This document shows, in pieces, positions 56,738 through 59,340 of a stretch of 64,000 bases of DNA. Position 1 is the first letter of the stretch; each line of letters begins with the position of its first letter. The position numbers were made by a program, and so were the translations under genes. A model generated the notes under the pieces. It was not told where the DNA came from and made no database searches. It worked only from the letters and a program-made list of their open reading frames with translations. Source of the stretch: Mucilaginibacter myungsuensis (GTDB lineage Bacteria > Bacteroidota > Bacteroidia > Sphingobacteriales > Sphingobacteriaceae); contig NZ_JADFFL010000004.1 of assembly GCF_015222005.1 (NCBI RefSeq), positions 124,001 through 188,000 of the forward strand. The letters are read 5' to 3'.

Positions 56738-57388
56738 TTATGCCGAACGCTTCAGGCTGTTACTCAAACCAGCCTGATAAACGGCCGCTACGATATCCTT
56801 ACCGTCTATCGATCTTTCCAGGTCCAGTCCGGGCTCATCGTAAACCACTTGTTTGTTGGTATCCAACACATAGGTAGCGGCCAATGGCACATTCTCGTCT
56901 ATGCCCGAAAAACGGTTCCAGATCGGGTCAGCATCGCTGTAGATCCTTAGGCTTTGGGCCAGCTCATGGTCGGCATCGAAGTAGAAGTTTAGCGACAAAC
57001 TGTTATCCCAAGCCAATTTCTCTAAAGCAGCTTCTTTTTCAGGGGTGACGATCAATAGGTTGCCGCCATTAGCTTTGATCTCGGTTTGCAGGGCGTTCAG
57101 TTGTTTCAACTGATCTACGCCGTGCTGCTGCCATTGCGGCGAGTAAAAGCTGATCACCAATGGCTTGTTCAGCAATTGCCTGATCTGGATAGGGCCATGT
57201 ATCTCGGCTCCGTTAAAAAAGTGCTGCCAGTTGTTATAACCCGAACGCAGGTTGAAACCCGGTAACGAATTACCCGTACGCACAGGGCGCAAGGGCTTGT
57301 ACTTGCGGAACGACAGATCCACATCCGGAACAACTTCTAACAGATCAAAGAATGGGTATTTGGCGGTATTTAGGGCGGTAGCTAACAT
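56738..57388 (-). CDS. Thioredoxin-fold redoxin protein lacking catalytic cysteines
   Basis: A 216-residue protein. The redoxin/AhpC-TSA fold is recognisable from GPIQIRQLLNKPLVISFYSPQW and from the order of strands that follows, including LIVTPEKEAALEKLA, NLSLNFYFDAD-like and ATYVLDTNKQVVYDE. The position of the active-site PxxxTxC or CxxC reads SPQWQQHGVDQ, so no peroxidatic or resolving cysteine remains; I see no Cys in the chain. A 25-codon reading frame with five Cys codons lies 41 nt upstream and may regulate it. Function unknown; perhaps a scaffold or sensor. Confidence 0.75.
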   Translation of the reverse strand: MLATALNTAKYPFFDLLEVVPDVDLSFRKYKPLRPVRTGNSLPGFNLRSGYNNWQHFFNGAEIHGPIQIRQLLNKPLVISFYSPQWQQHGVDQLKQLNALQTEIKANGGNLLIVTPEKEAALEKLAWDNSLSLNFYFDADHELAQSLRIYSDADPIWNRFSGIDENVPLAATYVLDTNKQVVYDEPGLDLERSIDGKDIVAAVYQAGLSNSLKRSA

Positions 57389-57429
57389 GGTATATTTTAT
57401 TTAAGAGTTATAGTAAAAAAGACATTTGT

Positions 57430-57507
57430 TTATTGCAGTTGATGGCAGCAACAACAACATCGCCACTGCGTGGGTATCAGCATGTATGCCTTAATTGGAT
57501 AACTCAT
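57430..57507 (-). CDS. Candidate cysteine-sensing leader peptide with five consecutive Cys codons
   Basis: An ATG-initiated frame of 25 codons: residues 1-16 are MSYPIKAYMLIPTQWR, residues 17-21 are five cysteines (codons TGT, TGT, TGT, TGC, TGC), and HQLQ follows. The five Cys codons occupy 57445-57459. A hairpin can form around them (57465-57469 with 57435-57439, and GATG with CATC inside). It ends 41 nt before the redoxin start. This is the layout of a cysteine attenuator, as known for polycysteine leader ORFs in mycobacteria; I know no Bacteroidetes precedent. Too short for statistics, so translation is unproven. Confidence 0.6.
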   Translation of the reverse strand: MSYPIKAYMLIPTQWRCCCCCHQLQ

Positions 57508-57515
57508 CGTATTTA

Positions 57516-57531
57516 ATTTAGTCGACCAAAT
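57516..57531. promoter_or_regulatory. Near-perfect palindrome upstream of the Cys leader ORF
   Basis: ATTTAGTCGACCAAAT, symmetrical around GTCGAC with one mismatched pair, 8 nt upstream of the leader ATG. A candidate regulator binding site. Confidence 0.4.
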
Positions 57532-57556
57532 AAGTAGTCTTTTTTGTTAAATTTTT

Positions 57557-58060
57557 TTAGCTTTTCTTCCTTGTTAAAAATAACCCGAAGCTGTAGATAT
57601 GGCAACCGATACAAAAGCCTGCAAAGGCTTCAAAGGATGCAAAGGTGCACAACACCAAAGTGAGTATCTGTGCGGCAAGTTCTTCATTGAAAACTACAAG
57701 GGCCAAAATACTAAAGATGAATACAAAACCCATTCCGGCCGAGAAACGCTTAGGGCCACCGTCGGTAGGTTTGTGGCCCATGTTGAGTTGCTTTACAACA
57801 ACATCACTTAGCAGACCTATCAAACTATATTTACCCCATTGCCCTGCCCTCAGCAAAAAATCGATAGCCAGAAAAACAAGTATCGGCCAAAACCCGCTGA
57901 ACAGATAGGTGGTCGCCAACGCCAGCACAAAGAAGGCATTCACGCGTGCTTTGTGCTCGTTAATAGTAACGTGATCTACAGGGCAACTAAGCCCATACCC
58001 CCCAGCCCCCTGAAGGGGGAGCAAGCTTCTTTTGCTTTTGATGATATCTGCCGATCCCAT
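57557..58060 (-). CDS. DUF4395 membrane protein with a repeat-derived N-terminus
   Basis: A 167-residue protein. From residue about 26 (CPVDHVTINEHKARVNAFF) it matches DUF4395, with four transmembrane segments and the phrases NMGHKPTDGGPKRFSAG and FCIGCHIY, a CxGC pair near the end. Residues 1-25 contain KRSLLPLQGAGGYGLS, encoded by the sequence CTTCAGGGGGCTGGGGGGTA, a form of a dispersed Bacteroidetes repeat. The native start appears displaced or disrupted by that element; the frame is intact. DUF4395 proteins occur near sulfur and thiol-redox genes, and this one is flanked by a peroxiredoxin and a redoxin. Confidence 0.8.
   Translation of the reverse strand: MGSADIIKSKRSLLPLQGAGGYGLSCPVDHVTINEHKARVNAFFVLALATTYLFSGFWPILVFLAIDFLLRAGQWGKYSLIGLLSDVVVKQLNMGHKPTDGGPKRFSAGMGFVFIFSILALVVFNEELAAQILTLVLCTFASFEAFAGFCIGCHIYSFGLFLTRKKS
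57996..58040. repeat. CCCCCAGCCCCCTGAAGGGGGAG-type repeat inside a coding region
   Basis: The plus strand shows CCCCCCAGCCCC and TGAAGGGGGAGCAAGCTT, a hairpin-forming repeat, within the 5' end of the DUF4395 gene. Confidence 0.6.
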
Positions 58061-58956: not shown

Positions 58957-59113
58957 GGGTAGATGTGTTAAAATGTTTTTTTATGTTGGTTGGCAGCAAT
59001 TACTTCAAAAAGTTTTACGCAGATGCCTAACCTAAAATTAATATCCTGATGTTGTTTGCTTATCGCAGAAGCTGCAAGAGAGAGAACCGTTTTCACGGCG
59101 GTGTATTCACTCG

Positions 59114-59230
59114 CTTATCTTTCCCTGTTTGGTAACAGAGCAGGAATTAGCACCTTTTTACTTGCCCCAACGGGCTTGGTACAGGTTGCTAAGACGTCTT
59201 TGGGCCTTTCCCTCAGTCTTTCTGGATAAG
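59114..59230 (-). ncRNA. SAM-I riboswitch (S-box) upstream of prx6
   Basis: On the minus strand the aptamer reads CTTATCCAGAAAGACTGAGG, GAAAGGCCC, then TTAGCAACCTG, a variable arm, AAGGTGCTAATTCC, and GATAAG closing P1. These are the S-box consensus blocks in order: P1 CTTATC...GATAAG, the GAGGGA-GGCCC core, GCAACC, and GGTGCTAATTCC. A second GATAAG lies at 59059-59064 and could pair with the same P1 strand. No U-tract terminator was recognised, so the switching mechanism is unclear. Confidence 0.92.
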
Positions 59231-59340
59231 TAAATAAAGAACGATAACGACACAAATGTAAGAACGTTATTTTAAATAACAAATAAATCTATGGAATTAG
59301 TAGTATTTATTTTTAAAGGATTGATTTTTAGGGCAATTAA

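Follow-up and report, generated by a model that had tools for sequence, protein, structure and literature searches.

What does a short open reading frame with five consecutive cysteine codons do immediately upstream of a redoxin gene whose own product lacks cysteine? The question is raised by one locus in the window, by which we mean the whole stretch of Mucilaginibacter myungsuensis DNA analysed here, 64,000 nucleotides in length (contig NZ_JADFFL010000004.1, positions 124,001 to 188,000). The locus consists of the following elements, numbered within the window.

57430..57507, minus strand: leader ORF of 25 codons plus TAA, with its ATG at 57507 and the product MSYPIKAYMLIPTQWRCCCCCHQLQ
57445..57459, minus strand: five-Cys codon run TGT TGT TGT TGC TGC, the proposed sensor
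57389..57429, minus strand: spacer of 41 nt between the leader stop and the redoxin start
56738..57388, minus strand: redoxin of the AhpC/TSA family (PF00578), 216 aa, with its ATG at 57388
57527..57534, minus strand: degenerate promoter-like box CTTATTTG, 27 nt 5' of the leader ATG, weak in the window itself
59112..59232, minus strand: SAM riboswitch RF00162 upstream of the adjacent peroxiredoxin gene, listed for context only

An earlier note on this DNA had described a 25-codon frame with five Cys codons ending 41 nt 5' of a cysteine-less redoxin, and this description holds. The coordinates agree, a five-Cys sORF was obtained in 0 of 5000 dinucleotide shuffles of the window's 340-nt upstream region, and the redoxin contains 0 Cys, its sole Met being the initiator. 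A CCC run appeared in 22 of a further 5000 shuffles of the same region. Chance or a simple repeat was rejected as the origin of the five-Cys ORF, on the grounds of the shuffles together with the control genes and the third-base variation described below. The Cys run of the window leader is followed by HQLQ and not directly by the stop codon. NCBIfam returned no family for any of the five leader peptides tried.

Of 60 relatives, 25 have the redoxin, and 22 loci were treated as orthologs; the weak matches L023-L030, which are without a Cys run, were not counted as such. Three or more consecutive Cys codons lie within 900 nt 5' of the gene in 19 of these 22 loci, and no such run was found within this distance at L015, L017 and L018. 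A profile search provided 49 public redoxin loci, 42 of them titled Mucilaginibacter; the incomplete loci L238 and L247 were left out of the counts, giving 47 usable loci, or 48 with the window. Upstream sORFs were required to begin with ATG and to span 12-70 codons within 340 nt, and Cys was counted in the last nine residues. By this measure, CCC was present at the leader end in 34 of 47 redoxin loci, compared to 2 of 165 control genes (other genes from those same loci) and 3 of 4700 shuffles. At least three Cys were present in 39/47, 3/165 and 36/4700, respectively. Eight of the 47 loci have no sORF with at least three Cys at its end within 340 nt, and at one of them, L228, the Cys ORF is more distant. 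When the search was extended to 420 nt and leaders of a second type, described below, were counted as well, 41 of the 48 loci, window included, carried a leader; that search found none at L213, L215, L218, L231, L232, L235 and L249. The 47 loci are related and do not represent independent events, but their leaders still differ widely beyond the Cys run. Judged from this comparison, a Cys-rich leader end before redoxin is conserved in kind, while its sequence is not. The frame that the earlier note suggested looking for in relatives thus precedes most orthologous redoxins.

In 38 of 40 other redoxin loci, a promoter box of the form TAnnTTTG precedes the first Cys ORF by 14-56 nt. In or beside this box, an imperfect palindrome CTAC..GTAG was seen at redoxin, phyH and susC leaders (L086, L169, L174, L197, L216, L243); the pattern has a match in 14 of the 40 redoxin loci and may be the operator of a regulator. 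A CGAATG string, often in the form ATGCGAATG (Met-Arg-Met), stands 5' of the Cys run at L010, L014, L020, L086, L112, L133 and L169 and may mark the true start of Cys leaders. No conserved operon was found around the redoxin, as any one neighbour family occurs in 17 of 48 loci at most. At two loci a fluoride riboswitch lies directly 3' of the gene (L002:1360-1422, minus strand; L201:4719-4781, plus strand).

Upstream of redoxin, a second short ORF, with the ending ..YGL[C]RC.., was detected in 21 of 48 loci, e.g., L201, L202, L216 and L226. This YGL[C]RC(C) ORF is located about 160-55 nt 5' of the redoxin, and 20 loci carry a tandem pair of Cys-bearing leaders. Tyr-Gly-Leu is invariant in 21/21, with varying third bases in these codons. 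The conserved Cys codon after Tyr-Gly-Leu, two from the end, is TGT in 21/21; third-base variation is therefore not true of every Cys codon. This peptide may act by arrest of the ribosome or as a second sensor of cysteine.

Cys runs were then searched in the organism's own genome and in relatives, and 217 sites were examined. With 181 of these set aside because they fall within ORFs of 150 aa or longer, 36 remain. Among them are leaders of metX and of an S10-type peptidase gene in the own genome, leaders of metY, and leaders of genes for a PhyH-type dioxygenase and SusC-like receptors in the own genome and others; some sites have no such target gene, e.g., L036, L079, L100 and L119. The metY assignment is above the NCBIfam cut-off, whereas metX is the best NCBIfam match yet below cut-offs. 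Genes of sulfur metabolism, metY and metX, are thus found downstream of poly-Cys leaders. Of 300 genomes of the order, 39 contain the exact pattern ATG(TGY)4TRA, namely 34 of 70 from this genus as against 5 of 230 others, and its reversed control gave a single match. We read 30 of the 47 sites with this pattern, three of which were flagged as inside long ORFs. All 27 intergenic sites lie upstream of one of six kinds of gene (metY 17, S10-type 5, SusC-like 2, metX 1, redoxin 1, porin 1), the targets being identified mostly from the first residues of the ORFs. One flagged site, L254, resembles another metY leader. The own genome (G000) has no metY at E up to 1e-150, compared to 35 of 36 same-genus relatives having it in that search; its metX retains a SAM aptamer and a Cys leader.

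The metY leaders allowed the coding character of the Cys run to be examined. At E up to 1e-150, metY was found in 37 genomes, and the best 30 of the 37, all of the same genus, were read. Their leaders are 28-40 codons long, and 27 of 30 have a CCC run; the remaining three end in CYCC or RRCC. A stop-anchored alignment was built from 29 of the 30, as L292 (tail RRCC) failed the filter. Cys occupies each of the last two codons in 28 of 29 leaders. The first two bases of these codons are nearly fixed, while the third bases over all 29 rows are T 14, C 14, G 1 and T 17, C 12, and the stop codon is TGA in 15, TAA in 13 and TAG in 1. At codons -3, -4 and -5, Cys was counted in 25, 22 and 12 of 29 leaders, often with Met substituted (codon -5 in 15/29). 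On account of the third-base variation and the stop exchange in the 29 leaders, the run is under coding constraint on cysteine. The metY leaders accordingly are short upstream ORFs with a constrained Cys run near the stop.

All 28 same-genus metY loci searched carry a match to RF00162 above the gathering score; these are 28 of the 30 metY loci, the other two sites having been matched as L162 and L185. The gap from the aptamer end to the leader AUG is 7 nt in 22/28 and 5-9 nt in 27/28, with 14 nt in one. The usual SAM riboswitch (S box) platform acts on the main gene, whereas in these loci the aptamer is followed by the leader AUG, in most cases at a distance of 7 nt. Fifteen SAM aptamers were compared in three Mucilaginibacter genomes. 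Five of them end in ATAAATT, and in all five a Cys-run leader ATG follows 7-13 nt later; these leaders precede metX of the own genome (gap 13 nt), metY in two cases and, in two more, a gene named by eye as TlpA-like. An RF00162 aptamer immediately 5' of the leader start was thus found for both metX and metY. Downstream of the other 10 of 15, the window's included, no ORF with a Cys run starts within 40 nt; in three cases a short ORF that lacks such a run starts in this interval. The genes after these ten aptamers, named by eye, include metH-like, cysteine desulfurase-like and peroxiredoxin genes. At the TlpA-like genes of L368 (G026) and L369 (G022), the aptamer is of the putatively leader-gating class and the leader has an ending RCCCCCL or RCCCL inside. 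In the window, no ATG is present within 40 nt 3' of the aptamer at 59112-59232. The earlier note had taken the nearness of this riboswitch as support for a sulfur link. The riboswitch is indeed present, but it is followed by the peroxiredoxin gene, and since its class has no Cys leader, its nearness is no direct evidence; it was dropped as direct support.

The arrangement extends beyond the genus. Among 30 genomes from other genera of the family, 25 have metY at E up to 1e-120. At least three Cys are present in the last nine residues of 19 of these 25 leaders, in 9 of the 12 genera having metY. L318 and L330 have two Cys at the leader end, L317 has only a 10-codon ORF with two Cys, and L324, L331 and L333 have no Cys in the last nine leader residues. 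An aptamer was detected in 18 of the 20 loci searched (L317 and L333 are without), and in 18/18 an ORF of 19-45 codons begins 6-11 nt past it. For the wider phylum we took 20 metY upstream regions, 19 chosen from matches among 118 genomes and one from the earlier metY search, and found the aptamer in 17. In the six aptamer loci of the same class, an AUG lies 2-9 nt downstream, and three of the leaders (L335, L336, L354) are clearly rich in Cys. The eleven aptamer loci of other classes have no Cys-run ORF starting within 25 nt; one of these, L350, carries an ORF of four codons with a single Cys at its end. The riboswitch appears to predate the Cys leader. Met/Arg-rich stretches (TRMR, CSRMR, MSMRMR, MRMRMPMSC) stand in place of Cys runs at L318, L324, L331 (genus g25) and L339, and such metY leaders perhaps sense methionine.

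The products encoded downstream are poor in sulfur. Cys plus internal Met amount to 0.22 per 100 aa in the redoxin family, compared to 2.87 in 204 neighbour proteins. No Cys is present in 45 of 48 redoxins and no internal Met in 33 of 48, whereas 12 of the 204 neighbours are without Cys and none is without internal Met. The S10-type protein of the own genome (464 aa) has 0 Cys and 3 Met, the porin of L273 (377 aa) 0 Cys and 2 Met, and the metX product (350 aa) 2 Cys and 3 Met. Sulfur-starved Pseudomonas aeruginosa is described as inducing antioxidants including a 1-Cys peroxiredoxin (PMC12581299), and this result makes a redoxin within a sulfur regulon plausible.

The recurrence of Cys leaders before sulfur genes, in some cases directly 3' of a SAM riboswitch, indicates that these bacteria may gauge their supply of cysteine by how easily ribosomes pass over Cys codons. 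A quite different account would treat the TGY string as a nucleotide motif, be it a protein-binding site, an RNA element or a simple repeat, in which the ORF is incidental. TGY repeats are common elsewhere, as the 181 of the 217 examined sites set aside above illustrate; in the leaders, though, third bases vary and stop codons exchange while the ATG and the frame are retained, and we regard this account as very improbable. Alternatively, the peptide itself might do the work: rich in Cys and Met, it could bind a metal or react with oxidants or persulfide, acting in trans or, as a redox-sensitive nascent chain, in cis. The frequent Met just 5' of the Cys run in the metY leaders would suit this, as would the second conserved peptide before redoxin, with its third-base variation at Tyr, Gly and Leu. 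The first leaders, by eye, share little beyond the Cys run, and the sulfur-assimilation targets as well as the abutment of metY leaders on SAM riboswitches fit supply sensing better, so that a working peptide appears distinctly unlikely to us.

A further alternative concerns the downstream step. The earlier note had proposed classical attenuation, in which a stalled ribosome opens a hairpin; this would employ a terminator or a start-blocking hairpin. The hairpin said to span the Cys codons of the window was not supported by folding: the predicted fold pairs these codons otherwise and is no better than that of shuffles (z -0.36; 66 of 200 shuffles fold equally well). No terminator-like sites were found in 57300-57700, the 41-nt spacer included. 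Such sites are not enriched over shuffles in metY leaders (1/30 vs 13/300) or redoxin leaders (2/41 vs 8/205), and a classical intrinsic terminator between leader and gene was discarded on this ground. Sequestration of the start site is likewise unsupported, as in our models for metY and redoxin the opening was hardly altered by stalling. For the metY start, mean opening energies over 28 loci were 4.57, 4.39 and 4.43 kcal/mol, with no difference by ribosome position; for the redoxin start they were 5.05, 4.50 and 4.72 kcal/mol across ribosome states. At the redoxin, stalling lowered the energy by more than 1 kcal/mol in 10 of 41 loci and raised it in 4. What speaks for attenuation is a hairpin with a CACG/CGTG stem predicted shortly 3' of many metY leader stops, with a YACG string starting 7-8 nt past the stop in 18/30. 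In the model, a ribosome at the leader stop melts an arm of this hairpin (pairing 0.79 to 0.23), and one stalled at the first Cys does not. RNAalifold on a MAFFT alignment of the 30 metY leaders returned no pairs after the leader. A hand-named helix in 16 chosen leaders of the 30 kept the CACG/CGTG core, but its pairing and covariation were below those of shuffles, and this helix was rejected. Taken with the unenriched terminators and the little-changed start sites, this leaves classical attenuation rather doubtful. The 50 nt 5' of metY are poor in G (C 19%, G 5%; C 17.5%, G 12% in 148 control genes), which would suit Rho loading and equally an open start site.

We read the system as a ribosome-sensed cysteine regulon that is partly SAM-gated, a reading that draws on what the sequence shows, namely the ORFs, their coding constraint, their targets, the geometry of aptamer and leader, and the low sulfur content. 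When cysteine is short, the ribosome would stall on the Cys codons near the leader end, and the stall would raise expression of the downstream gene, whose nearly sulfur-free product would be suited to sulfur starvation. In Mucilaginibacter the same device would be common to metX, metY, the PhyH-type dioxygenase, the S10-type peptidase, SusC-like receptors, a porin and the redoxin. For metY, and for the own-genome metX with its 13-nt gap, the leader AUG lies just past the P1 helix of the SAM riboswitch. Because of this position, SAM probably decides whether the leader is translated, and cysteine would decide the effect of that translation. Ribosome stalling, the direction of regulation and SAM gating are the parts that we infer. 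As neither an intrinsic terminator nor a start-sequestering structure was found, protection from Rho-dependent termination is the favoured link to the downstream gene. The cysteine-sensing interpretation of the earlier note is upheld by Cys frames before most redoxins and before sulfur-assimilation genes; its attenuation part is not. We consider the whole model, in which a leader peptide gene in cis senses charged Cys-tRNA and raises the downstream gene in a dispersed, SAM-gated regulon, to be likely. More specifically for the Sphingobacteriaceae, we lean slightly toward a SAM aptamer that gates initiation of the Cys leader, giving metX and metY two inputs, and a riboswitch-free version that runs a nearly sulfur-free regulon including the redoxin.

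Going by the title of work by Canestrari in 2020 (doi 10.1111/mmi.14498), poly-cysteine leaderless sORFs of mycobacteria are reportedly cysteine-responsive operon attenuators. The present leaders resemble them as poly-Cys short ORFs with a proposed response to cysteine. However, they belong to another phylum, and each is preceded either by a SAM riboswitch or by a promoter and a short 5' stretch. The ribosome-binding-site step of the mycobacterial mechanism is unsupported in them. Leader peptides of cys operons were predicted in the actinobacterial genera Mycobacterium, Propionibacterium and Bifidobacterium (Seliverstov 2005, PMC1262725). In the sections of that paper drawn on here, the Cys codons are likewise near the stop, conserved terminators are lacking and Rho is also suggested, but the taxa are others and a riboswitch is not mentioned. 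Mycobacterium tuberculosis ppe2 has a riboswitch-controlled translated leader (PMC11260477). Similar to our case, a riboswitch and a short translated ORF control the next gene, whereas the ligand is B12 and not SAM, and an amino-acid-codon sensor is not described in the part of the source used. According to the portion consulted of a 2010 survey, leader peptides had by then been shown in Proteobacteria and Actinobacteria, to which the survey adds Firmicutes (PMC2965389). In Flavobacterium psychrophilum, leader-peptide attenuation was suggested for amino-acid operons, cysteine not being named in the excerpt used (PMC9723704). Among the literature matches listed (full text, open-licence papers), none concerns a poly-Cys leader in Bacteroidota.

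If the model is true, ribosome-sensed cysteine control would exist in a second phylum, and a single RNA would integrate two sulfur metabolites through a riboswitch and a leader. It would further allow a direct study of how a stalled ribosome can control a gene that has neither a visible terminator nor a blocked start. The Bacteroidota would gain a tractable cysteine regulon, in which unstudied sulfur-free proteins would be marked as belonging to life under sulfur starvation.
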